Shown here piece after piece: positions 4,286 through 51,694 of a stretch of 64,000 bases of DNA. A model generated the notes under the pieces. The model worked only from the letters and a program-made list of their open reading frames with translations, was not told the origin of the DNA and did not search any database. The DNA lies in contig NZ_QLSV01000015.1 in assembly GCF_003268815.1 (NCBI RefSeq), positions 1 through 64,000 of the forward strand, given 5' to 3'. A program made the translations under genes and the position numbers. The DNA comes from Flavobacterium lacus (lineage in GTDB: Bacteria > Bacteroidota > Bacteroidia > Flavobacteriales > Flavobacteriaceae). Each line of letters starts with the position of its first letter. Position 1 is the stretch's first letter.

Positions 4286-4320
4286 GTCAAACCTACAACC
4301 TATACCCAGATAAAGCATAG

Positions 4321-4364
4321 ATATTGTATAGATAATGTATAGATAATGTATGGATAATGTATGA
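4321..4364. repeat. Four tandem 11-bp repeats
   Basis: Four head-to-tail units of the type ATAATGTATAG, with one or two changes between units, lie between two convergent genes. The 11-bp period is close to one DNA helical turn. No gene is seen here. Confidence 0.6.
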
Positions 4365-15546: not shown

Positions 15547-15598
15547 AAGGTGCTAAGGTGCTGAGGGACTAAGGTACTAAGGTACTGAGGTACTGAGG
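15547..15598. repeat. Short tandem repeat after lepA
   Basis: Degenerate units of 8-12 bp of the type AAGGTACTG/AAGGTGCT are repeated about six times directly after the lepA stop. Copy number could vary between strains by slippage. Confidence 0.7.
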
Positions 15599-19095: not shown

Positions 19096-19128
19096 AAAAA
19101 GGGTTGACTAAATCAACCCTTTGTTTTT
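19096..19128 (-). terminator. Terminator overlapping the end of the response regulator gene
   Basis: GGGTTGA and TCAACCC (19101-19119) form the stem, and TTTTTT follows on the minus strand. The stop codon of the response regulator lies inside the hairpin. Confidence 0.8.
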
Positions 19129-19773
19129 TGCTTCTGTAATCAGTTCGATATCGCTACTCCCTTTGACACCAAGAATCTCCTTAAGGTTAAGCTTTCGCTT
19201 TTCAATGGCACTTAACGAAAGTGGGACATAACTCGGTAAATCTTTGGTTTTTGTCCCTTTGGATAAATGATATAAAATCTGTTTATCAAACTCATCTACT
19301 TGCAAATTTTCATATTGTGATTGACTTACAAATTTTACAACGGTTTGACTGTAGTAATTGTCGTTATTGAGAATTTTATCAAATGCATTCAATAGTTCAT
19401 CAAAGGTTAAATCGTTCTTTATAATCAATCCGTTGGGATTGATTTCTTTAATGATTGTATTTATTTTAATTAATTCGGTGTGCATGGTGAGCAGAATAAT
19501 TTTGCAGTCAGGCATAAGCTTACGCAGTAATTTAGCCAAATCTTCGCCAGACATGATGCCTTTTTCTTCATAAGGCGGCATACTGATGTCTAAGAAAGCA
19601 ATATCAAACGCTTGGGTAGCCGTCGTAATGGTTTCATACGCCGTTTTACAATTGTTTGCTTGTGTGGTCGTATACTCAAACGAATTGGCACTGTAGCTTT
19701 TTAAAGCGTTTTTATAGGCTTCGATGATAAACGGATGATCATCAACAATAATGATTTGGTAATTTTTTGACAT
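19108..19773 (-). CDS. NarL/LuxR-type response regulator
   Basis: The 221-residue protein has a receiver domain (about 1-130) with Asp11/Asp12, phosphoacceptor Asp62 in AFLDISMP, a Thr in LLTMHT and a Lys in LIIKND. The C-terminal helix-turn-helix (about 155-221) contains ILYHLSKGTKTKDLPSYVPL and AIEKRKLNLKEILGV. The output helix is divergent from textbook NarL, as is common for regulators paired with HisKA_3 kinases in flavobacteria. It is probably the cognate partner of the TPR kinase just upstream. A terminator and a -7 box separate the two, so it can be expressed independently. The nearby bipartite elements are candidate targets. Confidence 0.9.
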   Translation of the reverse strand: MSKNYQIIIVDDHPFIIEAYKNALKSYSANSFEYTTTQANNCKTAYETITTATQAFDIAFLDISMPPYEEKGIMSGEDLAKLLRKLMPDCKIILLTMHTELIKINTIIKEINPNGLIIKNDLTFDELLNAFDKILNNDNYYSQTVVKFVSQSQYENLQVDEFDKQILYHLSKGTKTKDLPSYVPLSLSAIEKRKLNLKEILGVKGSSDIELITEAKNKGLI

Positions 19774-19813
19774 GATTTAGTTGCTTGGTTGTTTTTTGGT
19801 TGAAATTAACATT

Positions 19814-19821
19814 CAAATATA
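19814..19821 (-). promoter_or_regulatory. -7 box of the response regulator gene
   Basis: TATATTTG on the minus strand, 40 bp before the start codon and just after the kinase terminator. Confidence 0.55.
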
Positions 19822-19829
19822 AAAAAGAA

Positions 19830-19860
19830 AAAACACTTTTGTTAAATTCAAAAGTGTTTG
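19830..19860 (-). terminator. Terminator after the TPR histidine kinase gene
   Basis: AACACTTTTG and CAAAAGTGTT form a 10-bp stem, followed on the minus strand by TTTTCTTTTTT. Confidence 0.75.
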
Positions 19861-19870
19861 TTTATAAAAT

Positions 19871-21904
19871 TTATTTTTTAAACGGCAAATCAATGGTGAT
19901 AGTTGTCCCTTTGCCCGGTTTTGATTGTATATCAAAAGTACCTTTGCACGTTTCCACTCGTGAAGTGATATTTTGAAGTCCAATTCCTTTACTCTTCTTC
20001 GAAACATCAAAACCAACTCCGTCATCTAGAATGGTTACATGAAGGTGTTCGGCATCTTTTAACAAGTTAACTGAAACGTTCTTAGCCTTCGCATATTTAT
20101 TAATGTTTTGTAATGACTCCTGAATGATGCGGTAGAGATTAATTTTTAAATCATTATCCACCTTATCCCATATAATGGCTTGGTCTATTGCATATTTTAA
20201 ATCTGTTTGCTCGGAAAGATTTTTTTGTTCTTCTAACAAATTGGTTAAAATCGCTACAAAATTATTGATTAACGCAAACTTTTCACGACTCAGTTCGTGC
20301 GAAATTTCGCGTATATCTTGTTCAATAAACTTGAGTTCTGAGATATAATGGTCTCTACCGGCGATGGCTAGTTCATCCCCTTTTTTGTTTAAGCTGTCCA
20401 AATTTAGCCTTGCTCCAAACAAACGCCCTAAAACGCCATCGTGTAATTCCTGACCGATGCGTTGTTTTTCTTTAATAACAACCTCGTCTAACTTTTTCTG
20501 TTGACTTAACATCAAGCTATAAATTTCTTCATTCGCTTTTTGTTGTTGCTCACGCAAGCGAAAATACTTATTTCTGCTTCGTTGGTCACGAATAATATAT
20601 AGTAATACAATTATAAAAAAAGCGAGTAAAGCAAAAAGAATGATGTTTCTATTTTGAAGTGCTAATTGCTCTTTTTGTCTTTTGAACTCATCGGTTTCGT
20701 ATTCTATTCGGGCGAATTTTTCCGAAACTTTACGTTCGGCTTGCAGGAGGCTGTCGCTTAAATTTATATGTTCTTTTGAATAGGAATTTATATTTTCAGT
20801 ATCAATCTTTAACAAAATATCAACGGCTTCCAATTGTAGGTTTAAAATACGAGTTTCTTTTGCCAATTTATAGGCATCATTTGCATAAGTTAACGCACTA
20901 TCTTTCAATTCTACAATATTAAAATACTCTGCTAGTGCAATTTGACTTTCGACAATACCAGGTAAAAGTTTTAATTCTTTTCTAATAGAAAAAGATTCAT
21001 GAAAATCGTCTGAAACATTTTGCAATCGTTTTAGCCCTAAATTAGATTTCCCTCTAAGTGTTAACAAAGTAGCATAAAGCCCAGGGTGTTCTTCTTTTAA
21101 TTTAGGTTCGTTTAAACCTTGTTTAATATATTCTAGTGCAGGTTCAAAATTTTGAGCCTTTAAATTCACTAAAGCTAAATTGCTTAATGAAATTGCCTTT
21201 GTCTGAAATTGACCATAATTTTCTAAATTTTCTTTAGAAGCTATATCATAAGATTTTTTAAAATATTCTTCAGCTTTGTCATAATCTTTAATCCCATTAC
21301 ATGTTAAACCTAGAAGTGTATAAGATTCGAATAAAAGTCCTGGATTTTTTTCAAGTCTCAAATAATTTAAAGCATTCACAGCTGATTTTTCACTACCTAT
21401 ATAATCTCTTTCATTATATTTGGCAATAGCCATTTTTAAATTGGCTTTCCCTACTCCTAAATTATCTTTCCTTTTGAGATAAATTTTTTCTGCCTGATGA
21501 AAATAAATTACCGCACTATCCATAGCTAAATTTTTAGTATGGTACTCACCGAGATAAGTATAAGCTCTCGCTAAGTTGAGAGAGTCATTTAAATTTATGG
21601 CAACATCAATCATTTCAAGATTGATTTTTTTAAACAAATCGCTTTTCCCTATATTATCATAAGAAAAAGCGACATAAAAATTATTTAAAATGTAGGTTGA
21701 ATCAATTTTCGTTTGCTTTAACAAACGTTGAGCATTCAAAGTATTTCTTTCAATTTCATCATTTGACGAAGAAAAGTCAAATGCTTTTTTTAAATAGAAG
21801 TCAATACTATCTTTTTTAATATTTGAATTTAAGTTAGAATCTTTCTTGTCAGAACAACTAAAAAAGAAAAAAACTAATAATATAAGTATAAAAAAAACTC
21901 TCAT
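19871..21904 (-). CDS. TPR-domain sensor histidine kinase (HisKA_3 type)
   Basis: The 677-residue protein starts with a hydrophobic signal ending FFFFSC, a possible lipidation site. A region of about 380 residues made of TPR-like helical pairs follows, for example ARAYTYLGEYHTKN and AEEYFKKSYDIASKENLENYG. Next come one membrane helix (about 417-438, ILFALLAFFIIVLLYII), a coiled segment, a HisKA_3 dimerisation domain with phosphoacceptor His in IGQELHDGVLGRLFG (near 484), and an HATPase domain (GVGFDVSKKSKGIGLQNI, GKGTTITI). The TPR part should lie in the periplasm. TPR domains often bind peptides. The gene for a secreted repeat peptide ends 58 bp upstream, so the peptide is a plausible ligand; this is inference. 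Confidence 0.92.
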   Translation of the reverse strand: MRVFFILILLVFFFFSCSDKKDSNLNSNIKKDSIDFYLKKAFDFSSSNDEIERNTLNAQRLLKQTKIDSTYILNNFYVAFSYDNIGKSDLFKKINLEMIDVAINLNDSLNLARAYTYLGEYHTKNLAMDSAVIYFHQAEKIYLKRKDNLGVGKANLKMAIAKYNERDYIGSEKSAVNALNYLRLEKNPGLLFESYTLLGLTCNGIKDYDKAEEYFKKSYDIASKENLENYGQFQTKAISLSNLALVNLKAQNFEPALEYIKQGLNEPKLKEEHPGLYATLLTLRGKSNLGLKRLQNVSDDFHESFSIRKELKLLPGIVESQIALAEYFNIVELKDSALTYANDAYKLAKETRILNLQLEAVDILLKIDTENINSYSKEHINLSDSLLQAERKVSEKFARIEYETDEFKRQKEQLALQNRNIILFALLAFFIIVLLYIIRDQRSRNKYFRLREQQQKANEEIYSLMLSQQKKLDEVVIKEKQRIGQELHDGVLGRLFGARLNLDSLNKKGDELAIAGRDHYISELKFIEQDIREISHELSREKFALINNFVAILTNLLEEQKNLSEQTDLKYAIDQAIIWDKVDNDLKINLYRIIQESLQNINKYAKAKNVSVNLLKDAEHLHVTILDDGVGFDVSKKSKGIGLQNITSRVETCKGTFDIQSKPGKGTTITIDLPFKK

Positions 21905-21931
21905 TACATTAATGTTTAATCAAATGTAATG
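21902..21931 (-). promoter_or_regulatory. -7 box and dyad covering the kinase start codon
   Basis: TACATTTG (21928-21921) is a -7 box. CATTACATT and AATGTAATG (21931-21902) form a 9-bp inverted repeat that includes the kinase ATG, and a run of eight T follows inside the first codons. It may be an operator, a weak attenuator for read-through from the peptide gene, or a hairpin hiding the start codon. Confidence 0.4.
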
Positions 21932-21962
21932 AAAGTTTTTTAATCTATATAAAAATTATCTA

Positions 21963-22226
21963 CTAGGTGATAATCATTCCTCTTTTTGCTCCACCAATAG
22001 TTCCATCTGAAGTCTCATATGTAATAATCATTCCTCTTTTTGCTCCTCCAATAGTTCCATCAGAAGTTTCATAAGTAATAATCATACCTCTTTTTGCTCC
22101 GCCAATGGTTCCATCACTTGTTTCAGTCAAGACTGATTCGTTTGCTATTGTATTATTACTCGAAATGTCCGTAGAAGAAACAGAAGCGAACATAAAAAGT
22201 CCTAATAATGCGAATAAAGTTTTCAT
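21963..22226 (-). CDS. Secreted precursor with three identical 18-residue peptide repeats
   Basis: The 87-residue product has a signal peptide (about 1-18, MKTLFALLGLFMFASVSS), a short linker (to about residue 33) and three head-to-tail copies of ETSDGTIGGAKRGMIITY, the last ending at Thr before the stop. The copies are identical in protein, but their codons differ at several positions, all synonymous, so the peptide itself is under selection. A dibasic KR and a GG occur in each unit and could be processing sites. I recognise no family. The gene sits directly upstream of a periplasmic-TPR histidine kinase on the same strand and shares its control element with three non-coding units. A multi-copy signalling-peptide precursor is the favoured guess; a small surface or repeat protein is the alternative. 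Confidence 0.75.
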   Translation of the reverse strand: MKTLFALLGLFMFASVSSTDISSNNTIANESVLTETSDGTIGGAKRGMIITYETSDGTIGGAKRGMIITYETSDGTIGGAKRGMIIT

Positions 22227-22331: not shown

Positions 22332-22429
22332 GGTGTAAAAGTATAGTGCATATTTCCTACAGCCAACAAAATCAAGGGGCGAATGGTAGAATACATTCGT
22401 TTCAGTGTGGATTAACTTCAATTTTTGGT
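22332..22429 (-). promoter_or_regulatory. Promoter-like box and bipartite element of the repeat-peptide gene
   Basis: On the minus strand TACTTTTACACC (22343-22332) matches the box of unit C (TACTTTTACATC) and of A/B (TATCTTTACATC). Upstream, 22429-22405 contains TTCACCAAAAATTG and AATCCACA. These align without gaps to the CACACTAAAATTGG and AAACCACA half-sites of unit C. The element-box distance is about 17 bp longer here than in the RNA units. Confidence 0.5.
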
Positions 22430-22442
22430 GAAATAACCTGTC

Positions 22443-23555
22443 TTAGATGTCTTTGAATTCTGAGCCTGCTAATTGGGCTATAATTTGCTCTACATTGTCC
22501 TTGTAGCTCTTAGAAAACGGGAGTTGCGTCTTCGCGTTTTTAATGTAGCAAACCGTATTTCCGGTATGAATTCGGGAAACGTAGTTTTTATTCACAATAT
22601 AACTATTGTGTATTCTGAAGAAATAAGAAGGTAGATTTTCTTCAAAGTATTTTAAGGTTTTGAAAGCGGTAATTACTTCGCTGTTATTTAAGGTTATATC
22701 GGTAGAATTGTTATCGGCTTTCAAAAAAGCAATTTCGTCTAATTCTAAAAAGCGATAATCACCGTAGGATTTTATACAGATTAAATTGCGATGGACTTCA
22801 TCATTTGCCACAATCGTTTTTGGAGAATCAAAGGTGATGTTTTTGATTTCTGAAAGAATAGGCTCTAAATCAACCGTAGTATTTCCCTTAGGAAAAGATT
22901 CTTGGAGCGTTGCAATTAGTTGCGCAGTAATGGCCTCTGAATCAAACGTTGGTTTCTGAAAATTGGCTATTTCTAAAATAGCTTCTTTTAAACTCGATAA
23001 TTCTGTTTTCAGCAGCGTAATTAATTCCTCATTCACCGAATTAACTTGAACATGCTCCGGCTGAATCGAAATTAATTCTTTAGCCAAATTATCTCCCTCC
23101 TGAACTTCAGGCGTTGGTTCAACAATTTTGAAATCAGTTATTTTTCTTGGCTCCGGATTTAAACGAATTACTGGGACATCATTATTTTTTTCAAACCGCA
23201 ACAAGGCTTTGCGAACATCACTCGATGAAAAAGGTTTTACTAAAAAATCCAACACATCATACTTCACCGCTTCAAACGCTTTGCTTGTATCGTGTGAAAT
23301 GGCAATAATTTTTGGGATTTTCTTTAAAAAACGGTGCAATTCATTAATCAACAACAAAGAAAGATTAGAAGAAGCAGAAAGCGGATTGATTTCTAAAAAA
23401 ACAAAATCGGGTTGATATTCTAAAATGGCATTTAATCCGTCCTCATAATTCGTTGCAGTGGCCATAAGCTGAAAATTTGAAAATCCTTCCATTACGGACT
23501 GGATTTTCAAAATGCTTTTGCTGTCATCGTCAAGAATGAGGTAAGAGTGCATCAT
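22443..23555 (-). CDS. LytTR-family regulator with an altered receiver domain
   Basis: The 370-residue protein has an N-terminal receiver domain (about 4-120) and a C-terminal LytTR DNA-binding domain (about 265-365; ICIKSYGDYRFLELDEIAFL, FFRIHNSYIVNKNYVSRI). In the receiver, the acidic pocket (Asp9-11), Ser87 and Lys107 are present. The phosphoacceptor position is Glu55 in DFVFLEINPL, where Asp is normal. Asp-to-Glu changes can mimic the phosphorylated state, so it may be constitutively active or respond differently. A linker of about 140 residues joins the domains. No kinase is fused or immediately adjacent. It lies upstream of the repeat-peptide gene on the same strand and is a candidate binder of the bipartite elements. 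Confidence 0.9.
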   Translation of the reverse strand: MMHSYLILDDDSKSILKIQSVMEGFSNFQLMATATNYEDGLNAILEYQPDFVFLEINPLSASSNLSLLLINELHRFLKKIPKIIAISHDTSKAFEAVKYDVLDFLVKPFSSSDVRKALLRFEKNNDVPVIRLNPEPRKITDFKIVEPTPEVQEGDNLAKELISIQPEHVQVNSVNEELITLLKTELSSLKEAILEIANFQKPTFDSEAITAQLIATLQESFPKGNTTVDLEPILSEIKNITFDSPKTIVANDEVHRNLICIKSYGDYRFLELDEIAFLKADNNSTDITLNNSEVITAFKTLKYFEENLPSYFFRIHNSYIVNKNYVSRIHTGNTVCYIKNAKTQLPFSKSYKDNVEQIIAQLAGSEFKDI

Positions 23556-50302: not shown

Positions 50303-51694
50303 TTATTTTATAACAACAACTTCTGTTCTTCTGTTTTGAGCTCTACCTGCAGCTGTTTTGTTATCAGCAACTGGTCTTGATGGACCAAATCCTTCAGATT
50401 CTAATCTTGAAGCGTCTACACCGTTTGCGATTAAGTAATCTTTAACAGCAGCAGCTCTTTCTTTAGAAAGTCTTTCGTTTGTTGCTAAAGAACCTGTACT
50501 ATCTGTATGTCCTTCAATTCTGAATTTAGCAAATGGATATTCGTTCATTACACTTTTAATGGAAGCTAATGTTCCGAAAGAAACTTGCTTGATTGTAGAT
50601 TTTCCAGTATCAAATAAGATTGATTTAGCAAAATCATTCAATTGTTTAACAACTTCTGCAGATACTTCAGGACAACCGTTATTTGCAACAGTACCTTTTA
50701 CATCTGGACATCTGTCATCTTTGTCAAGAACTCCGTCTCCATCTCTATCTGGCCATGGACATCCTTTGTTTTCTTTAGGTCCTTTTTCATTTGGACAATC
50801 ATCATCTTTATCAGCGATTCCGTCACCGTCTGTATCAGGACATCCTTTTAATGATTTTAAACCAGCAACTTCTGGACACTCATCATCTTTATCTGGCACA
50901 CCGTCTCCGTCTGTATCAGGACAACCTTGGAATTCAGCTAAACCAAATACGTCTGGACAAGCGTCATCACCATCTATGATTCCGTCTCCGTCTGTATCAG
51001 GACATCCGTTAAATTGTTTTAAACCAAATACGTCTGGACAAGCATCGTCTTTGTCATAAATTCCGTCACCATCTGTATCTTTACCACCGAATTTGAAGGT
51101 AAGACCTGCAAAGTGTTGCAAGTGAGAAGGCATAACTGTTCTATCATCCTCGAAAGAATGTTTGTAAGTAGATTTAACAGACAATCCAACAGTTTCTGAG
51201 AACCAAAAGTTAAATCCTAATCCTCCATTAACAGTACCTGCACTATTATCTCCTAGGAAAGTATAACCTCCACCAATGTGTAACACAGGCTCGATAAACT
51301 TGAAGAAAGTACCAGCACTATAATTGATGCTACCATCAACTCCATAATACATTTCATCAATCCTTGTAACCACATAATCACCATTGTTCATAAGTGATTT
51401 TTCAGATACAAATTTGTCAATTTTGTTAAAAGACCCTGTTAGTCCAAAAGAGAAATTGTCTCCAACGTGTCTAGTCACTGTTAAGTAAGATACAGAAGGA
51501 ACAAAGTTCCAATAATCCTCTGCATTAAAATACTCAGAAAACTGATTTTTAATACTTTCGGCAGCACTAACTCTACCTCCGTCGACGGCATTCGCTCCAA
51601 AGGAGACTGCCCATGGGTTGTTATTATCTTGGGCCTGCGAACTTAGTCCAGCAAACATAAAGATAGCGACAACTAATTTGTTAAGATGTTTCAT
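50303..51694 (-). CDS. OmpA-family outer-membrane protein with TSP3 repeats
   Basis: The product (463 residues from ATG 51694) has a signal peptide (ending SSQAQ) and an N-terminal eight-strand-type barrel of about 200 residues. Five thrombospondin type 3 calcium-binding repeats follow (DTDGDGIxDxDDxCPDV, each ending in GCP). The C-terminal OmpA domain shows [21 protein letters not shown] and [13 protein letters not shown], and binds peptidoglycan. It links outer membrane and cell wall and is likely abundant, given its excellent promoter. The in-frame ATG at 51736 overlaps the -7 box and is excluded. Confidence 0.95.

Follow-up and report, generated by a model that had tools for sequence, protein, structure and literature searches.

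Candidate peptide pheromones paired with predicted periplasmic TPR-domain histidine kinases in Flavobacterium lacus and other Flavobacteriaceae

Introduction

The RRNPP systems (Rap-Phr, PlcR-PapR, NprR-NprX and Rgg-SHP) pair a small exported propeptide with a receptor of tetratricopeptide repeat (TPR) fold encoded beside it, and their specificities are particular to each lineage. RRNPP receptors are cytoplasmic. In the Agr and Com systems, a hypervariable peptide is matched by an adjacent kinase with a variable sensor half and a conserved kinase half, and the locus includes a LytTR regulator; in these systems the sensor is polytopic and the LytTR regulator is phosphorylated. The precursors of yeast alpha-factor and the repeat-bearing Phr precursors carry several identical peptides separated by spacer residues. 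RRNPP_Detector, according to its description, sought receptors of 250–500 residues in complete Firmicutes genomes (PMC10075063). Here we analyse a 64,000-nucleotide stretch of the Flavobacterium lacus genome (contig NZ_QLSV01000015.1, positions 1 to 64,000; hereafter the window), in which the genes for a LytTR regulator, an 87-residue precursor, a TPR histidine kinase and a response regulator follow one another on the minus strand. We propose that precursor and kinase form a peptide-ligand/TPR-kinase signalling system with lineage-specific specificities, a reading to which we give a probability of roughly three in four, and that the ligand is probably a pheromone.

Like the RRNPP systems, the locus has a small propeptide gene directly adjoining the gene of its proposed receptor, and the receptor model shares its fold, though no more than that, with RapI, NprR and Rap bound to competence factor. 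It differs from these cytoplasmic regulators and phosphatases of 250–500 residues in that the receptor is a 677-residue membrane kinase with a predicted periplasmic TPR domain, in the Gram-negative Flavobacteriaceae; cytoplasmic import by an oligopeptide permease, as in RRNPP systems, should therefore not be needed. With Agr and Com, the locus has in common a hypervariable peptide, a co-varying sensor domain, a conserved kinase domain and a LytTR gene. It departs from them in its TPR sensor, its HisKA_3 domain, a NarL-like response regulator that keeps the phospho-Asp, a LytTR protein with Glu at that place, and a simple precursor with a signal peptide, in which the ligand sequence is often present more than once. 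No AgrB- or ComA-like gene, or other maturation or export gene, was recognised by eye next to the operon in the window or in two related loci, L061 and L062. The likeness to alpha-factor and Phr precursors lies in the several identical peptides per precursor, and we know of no sequence relation. The proposed system works like RRNPP and Agr/Com and is filed in neither, since its receptor is not a cytoplasmic regulator and its kinase and regulator features differ.

Results

A precursor slot upstream of the kinase

An earlier reading made from the letters of the window alone (the sequence-only reading) had placed a precursor, a TPR histidine kinase and a response regulator on one strand, and both the open reading frames (ORFs) and a Pfam scan of four window proteins confirm this. 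Searched for in 100 relatives, the 87-residue protein gave weak matches besides itself (best other E 0.004, 30% identity). A scan of genome contigs found two homologues, in Flavobacterium sp. UBA2787 (L061) and F. piscinae (L062), which have the signal peptide and the four-gene order of the window, LytTR gene included, with different repeats (SENGDGSAVTGGKRALVIQ, two copies). A fourth related precursor, in L032, has a single copy and ends in GGGKRGLVVL. Because the precursor is hypervariable and the sequence search came back nearly blank, relatives were sought through the kinase, and the family was thus found by position and not by its repeats.

The kinase is present in 170 of 199 genomes of the genus, that of F. 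lacus included (E 1e-60), and in 170 of 299 genomes drawn from the family, covering 144 of 236 genera. A class-wide draw gave matches in 9 of 295 genomes at E 1e-40, all of them in Flavobacteriaceae; relatives beyond the family, if any, fall below this threshold. In addition to the automatic loci, 100 and a further 40 regions were fetched. The genus set (L031–L162, including L061 and L062) held 153 kinase matches, of which 14 near contig edges and the duplicates (the first copy in L159, and L045) were dropped; a small exported ORF lies directly upstream of 127 of the 137 kinases left. In the family set, nearly all of which comes from other genera, the same holds for 66 of 69 kinases under a looser start criterion, the misses being one kinase near a contig edge (L206), one where a stretch of Ns adjoins a precursor that can still be made out (L182) and one whose 202-residue repeat precursor is over the length limit (L227). 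When the strict criterion is applied to both sets, a small exported ORF is found just upstream of 191 of 205 distinct kinases (208 before removal of duplicates, kinases below 150 bits being left out), compared with 5 of 304 other ORFs of at least 200 residues in the same loci. Contig ends, an N-run, an excluded start or length explain five of the 14 remaining cases (L044, L182, L197, L206 and L227). The expectation that homologues of the precursor would sit beside TPR–HisKA_3 kinases was borne out by L061 and L062 and by the slot in these 191 loci, with the proviso that a kinase-anchored search cannot show that such precursors never occur elsewhere.

Additional copies of either partner were also seen. 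On another contig of the F. lacus genome (C3), a second TPR kinase (L239:1489-3522; 31% identical) has a response regulator downstream and a 51-residue lipoprotein-like exported ORF just upstream (L239:1239-1394). TPR kinases stand in tandem in L108 (14.9 kb), L151 and L159, as receptor expansions in which not every kinase has a small precursor of its own. Two precursors in a row, one lipoprotein-like and one plain, precede a single kinase in L143–L146, L150, L153, L155 and L158, and in some of these loci their tails are similar (e.g., TPLVVIKKD and TPLVIMKKD in L150). L186 and L216 each have two near-identical precursors in a row.

The precursor and its repeat units

The window precursor starts with a predicted Sec-type signal peptide, which was identified by eye and is also kept in L061, L062 and L032. 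A short spacer follows, and then come three units in tandem (two of ETSDGTIGGAKRGMIITY and one that lacks the Y), the last of them ending at the stop codon. The sequence-only reading had described three identical 18-residue units in an exported protein; the repeats are indeed identical, and the third, which lacks the terminal Tyr, has 17 residues. Over 25 synonymous and 77 nonsynonymous sites, comparison of each copy with its neighbour shows 12 synonymous changes and none in the amino acids: the letters of the peptide have been kept as the DNA drifted. The array has the second-highest tandem-repeat score in the window (245). No Pfam or NCBIfam family reached its cut-off with this precursor, and for 10 others (E 0.01) the sole family above cut-off was a lipoprotein attachment site; no bacteriocin family was among the results.

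GG and KR, which occur in each unit, had been taken for processing sites. Both are also kept within the core of single-copy precursors that end just past that core (L032 and L053); they seem to belong to the ligand itself, and their reading as processing sites is not supported as it stood. Cleavage at GG by a C39/PCAT transporter was considered and dropped, as the cores differ to the left of GG as well as to its right and we recognised no transporter gene next to the operon.

Across the Flavobacterium set, 70 of 127 precursors carry 2–6 exact copies of their unit, as in LVGGASAGGNKKVD (four copies, L040), AAGSGSTGGNVRLD (five, L036), IDGAGGQSTGGNRKVD (three, L058) and NSGGSRQLKSD (five, L056), and 57 carry one. 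The 127 precursors hold 119 distinct cores. For single-copy precursors the core was set at the C-terminal 16 residues, a rule that puts it in the wrong place in some, such as L055 with its C-terminal extension. A [KR]xD C-terminus is found in 77 of 127. Median identity is 0.65 in the first 20 residues versus 0.12 in the last 16 (107 precursors with a common start motif); the predicted signal peptide is conserved and the mature part hypervariable. In L051, L054 and L063, identical units are separated by unrelated linkers, which points to the unit as the object of selection. Between copies, the proportion of synonymous differences (pS) exceeds that of nonsynonymous differences (pN): units picked by protein identity, a choice that biases pN low, give 0.297 versus 0.017 (518 and 91 changes), and 50 arrays with the period picked on DNA give 0.329 versus 0.114 (593 and 657 changes).

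Many members of the family have just 45–60 residues and one copy. Long arrays are found in other genera as well (L188, L197, L215 and L230, the last with about 8 copies), and the 202-residue precursor of L227 (L227:2261-2869) contains many copies. Paired-Cys repeats in long precursors, CDDCSHDKDEREA in L230 and CDDCAHDSDDRET in L215, hint at disulphide-bonded ligands.

Co-diversification of peptide and TPR domain

The kinases of the window and L061, which have different peptides, are 82–100% identical in their last eight 40-column blocks and 19–70% identical in the first ten, which cover the TPR region. The kinases of L061 and L062, whose peptide units are identical, are 77–100% alike throughout. 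Between the window and L061, pN is 0.308 in the TPR half and 0.040 in the kinase half, nearly an eightfold difference, with pS alike at 0.64 and 0.57; between L061 and L062, pN is lower in the TPR half (0.030) than in the kinase half (0.058). With kinase divergence matched, similar peptides go with more similar TPR domains: at kinase identities of 0.85–1, TPR identity is 0.81 for similar peptides (n = 46) versus 0.62 for dissimilar ones (n = 94).

In 49 non-overlapping closest pairs, the residuals of peptide and TPR domain beyond kinase divergence are correlated (rho 0.69, p 5e-8), and another measure of peptide similarity gives rho 0.77, reached in 0 of 10,000 permutations. A comparison of these pairs in two groups left out the 8 of intermediate peptide similarity. 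Linked genes served as controls. The LytTR gene, which in the window lies 216 bp from the precursor on its other side, does not follow the peptide (rho 0.16, p 0.36, 36 pairs, from 74 of 105 loci, partly owing to the short flanks of some), compared with 0.60 for the TPR domain in the same pairs. Nor does the response regulator (rho -0.11, p 0.47, 48 pairs; TPR domain in the same pairs 0.69). At the level of sequence, the tie between peptide and TPR domain is well supported, and this co-diversification supports the earlier suggestion that the peptide would be a ligand of the kinase.

Predicted structure of the TPR region

The best of five AlphaFold2 models of the TPR region, built from an input of three sequences, has a pLDDT of 83.4 and a pTM of 0.73 (pLDDT of the other four, 74.5–63.7). 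Among the entries that Foldseek ranked high, to which VIA-align comparisons are confined, the nearest are complexes of LGN with peptides at Z about 29 (4wnd: Z 29.9, root-mean-square deviation [rmsd] 3.6, 312 residues aligned). These are followed by apo RapI (Z 26.7, rmsd 5.1, 346 aligned), apo NprR (Z 25.1, rmsd 6.5, 339 aligned) and Rap with competence factor (Z 24.1, rmsd 7.1, 337 aligned). In the LGN/Pins entries the TPR protein is bound to a partner, either a peptide or a protein; these matches are eukaryotic, with about 15% identity, and the resemblance is one of fold only. The model fits peptide binding and is no proof of it.

Control region and the LytTR neighbour

The regions upstream of 68 of 105 peptide genes contain at least two words of the form AT[TC][CTG]AC[CT] at a distance of 20–22 bp from each other. 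Their spacing peaks sharply at 21 (75 pairs), whereas mononucleotide shuffles give a mean of 0.02 and a maximum of 1, and such word pairs precede 5 of 22 precursors of other subfamilies. The repeats of the window stand at -208, -187 and -166 from the precursor ATG and are variants that do not match this expression. A two-turn spacing suits LytTR proteins. The promoter-like box of the window was read against the Bacteroidota -7 consensus, and a related 9-mer, TAGTTTTAC, itself absent from the window, is found in 76 of the 105 regions (best shuffled 9-mer, 7). The receiver of the LytTR protein has Glu at the phospho-Asp place in all 71 readable cases among the 79 neighbours of the Flavobacterium set; in L227, from another genus, His was read there by eye. 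The LytTR protein may have a pseudo-receiver and act without phosphorylation.

Feature list and other repeats of the window

Coordinates are collected in Table 1. By eye, the kinase has a signal- or lipobox-like N-terminus (FFSC) and a transmembrane segment between the TPR region and HisKA_3. For the response regulator, Pfam recognises the receiver and makes no call for the NarL/LuxR-type helix-turn-helix at the C-terminus; the NarL-type label of the sequence-only reading is based on NCBIfam, in which MctR, UvrY and others are matched over the full length below threshold. The phospho-Asp is present in 106 of the 106 motifs listed, from 121 relatives.

Table 1. Features of the proposed peptide signalling locus, with positions in the 64,000-nucleotide window.
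Feature	Position	Strand	Basis or remark
LytTR-type regulator	22443..23555	-	Pfam LytTR, E 1.2e-17; receiver FLEINP, Glu at the expected phospho-Asp place
Putative LytTR operator, direct repeats ATTTCACC / AATCCACA / ATTCTACC, exactly 21 bp apart	22385..22434	-	By eye
Promoter-like TACTTTTA box	22336..22343	-	Regular expression TAnnTTT[AG], at -117
87-residue exported multi-copy peptide precursor (proposed prepropheromone)	21963..22226	-	ORF, repeats, relatives L061, L062 and L032
Predicted signal peptide, about residues 1-18	22173..22226	-	By eye; conserved in relatives
Unit 1, ETSDGTIGGAKRGMIIT-Y	22071..22124	-	Identical repeat
Unit 2, ETSDGTIGGAKRGMIIT-Y	22017..22070	-	Identical repeat
Unit 3, ETSDGTIGGAKRGMIIT, stop codon directly after	21966..22016	-	Identical repeat without final Tyr
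TPR sensor histidine kinase, 677 residues	19871..21904	-	Pfam: TPR repeats, HisKA_3, HATPase_c
Proposed periplasmic peptide-binding TPR superhelix and linker (residues 25-418)	20651..21832	-	AlphaFold2 model, fold matches, divergence with peptide
Terminator-like hairpin in the gap from kinase to response regulator, possibly an attenuator	19831..19859	-	12 such sites in the stretch versus 1.8 expected
NarL-like response regulator, phospho-Asp kept (FLDISMP)	19108..19773	-	Pfam receiver

Three other tandem repeats were seen in the window. The top-scoring array (score 310; 50792-51079) is an 81-bp repeat that by eye encodes Asp-rich, calcium-binding-like repeats. An intergenic array of AAGGTACT-like 8-mers (15547-15598) follows a lepA-like gene, named by eye, and the 11-bp repeat AGATAATGTAT is present in five copies at 4308-4362.

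Discussion

In the mechanism that we propose, the small protein would be exported by way of its predicted signal peptide, and proteolysis would free several identical peptides of roughly 11–19 residues (in the window, about ETSDGTIGGAKRGMIIT). Released from its precursor and acting between cells, the peptide would bind the superhelix of the neighbouring kinase's periplasmic TPR domain and so change phosphorylation of the NarL-type response regulator. The LytTR protein with its Glu receiver, perhaps constitutively active, may bind the direct repeats at the precursor promoter and set or feed back precursor expression. With its own peptide and a matching TPR domain in each lineage, cells would listen to their own kind, giving species-level pherotypes.

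Several observations weigh against this proposal. Nine of the 205 kinases lack an upstream precursor and an explanation (L045, L100, L108 twice, L151 twice, L152, L159 and L161); they are mostly divergent copies, several in tandem arrays, and one L108 case has a 45-residue ORF with another start codon upstream. The precursor ends exactly at a full unit in just 43 of the 70 repeat precursors. When all pairs are taken together, peptide and TPR domain show a modest partial correlation given the kinase half, 0.20 (reached in 0 of 2000 permutations). The value for peptide and kinase half given the TPR domain is higher, 0.28, so general divergence accounts for some of the signal. Pairs with different peptides are more diverged overall (kinase pN 0.099 versus 0.048). 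TPR substitutions examined by position did not single out the groove. Other large TPR proteins score close to Rap and NprR in the fold comparison (O-GlcNAc transferase, Z 23.9; APPBP2, 24.6), so the fold does not show function. Finally, signalling between cells would still require a peptide of 17–18 residues to pass the outer membrane, and no exporter or protease gene was recognised by eye in the operon.

This last point would also suit a different role for the small protein, which would stay unprocessed, in the periplasm or anchored by a lipid, and act on the TPR domain as a tethered brake or activator. The pair would then be a within-cell sensor of the envelope, and the repeats would add avidity. 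Many precursors of other genera are, by eye, shorter, single-copy and lipoprotein-like, which makes release less evident there, and 113 of 127 kinases have a loose lipobox-like Cys pattern near the N-terminus. A released ligand is nevertheless better suited to the exact copies, 2–6 in 70 of 127 precursors and about 8 in L230, and is favoured by the unrelated linkers between identical units and the species-level hypervariability; we regard a tethered partner as unlikely, and as an alternative to be taken seriously. The tie between peptide and receptor could in principle be an artefact of linkage, in which one recombination tract carries the peptide and the 5′ half of the kinase, both within about 1.6 kb, without any functional tie. 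The lower pS of the TPR half between L061 and L062 (0.45 versus 0.64), loci with the same peptide, is what a shared recombined tract would give and counts against our proposal to that extent. That the LytTR gene fails to track the peptide from a distance of 216 bp, that pS is alike in the two halves between the window and L061 at a nearly eightfold difference in amino-acid divergence, and that different-peptide pairs show no significant excess of pS in the TPR half (p 0.30) make this explanation very improbable.

Hypervariable small peptides encoded beside a two-component system are also a mark of class II bacteriocin regulation, and the exported peptides here could be antimicrobials whose production is regulated by an adjacent, product-sensing kinase. 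In this locus it is the peptide and its receptor that form the hypervariable pair, no immunity or transporter gene was recognised by eye in the operon (Pfam being run on four window proteins), and the family searches with 10 other precursors brought up no bacteriocin family above its cut-off; we hold out little expectation of this function. Short tandem repeats occur in adhesins too, and the precursor might be read as a surface or structural protein without a link to the kinase. The slot kept upstream of 191 of 205 kinases and the many short members with a single copy speak so strongly against this that its likelihood seems negligible.

The peptide-ligand/TPR-kinase reading thus remains the one that we prefer. 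Whether it extends to an undescribed, family-wide pheromone language of the Flavobacteriaceae is a closer call. On balance we lean slightly towards such a language, in which hypervariable, often multi-copy precursors and co-evolving periplasmic TPR kinases would make up many private pherotypes, with tandem expansions, for kin recognition or density sensing. To our knowledge, the means by which Bacteroidota gauge their density are still to be settled. Kordia algicida is a flavobacterium. In one report, its protease release was triggered by conditioned filtrate and no acyl-homoserine lactone was detected (PMC3117869). Our search of the open-access literature, with subscription papers and preprints outside its scope, found no description of a system like the one proposed here, and the accessible parts of PMC10352776, PMC10075063 and PMC3117869 describe none.

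The pairing of peptide and TPR kinase makes density sensing in Bacteroidota directly testable, as both partners can be synthesised, deleted and swapped. The approximately 119 peptide cores in Flavobacterium form a natural library for the study of joint change in ligand and receptor. If the proposal is correct, a periplasmic TPR domain on a histidine kinase would be a new type of receptor for peptide signalling, and, should the family-wide language exist, the Gram-negative Bacteroidota would possess a genetically encoded system for kin recognition and density sensing.

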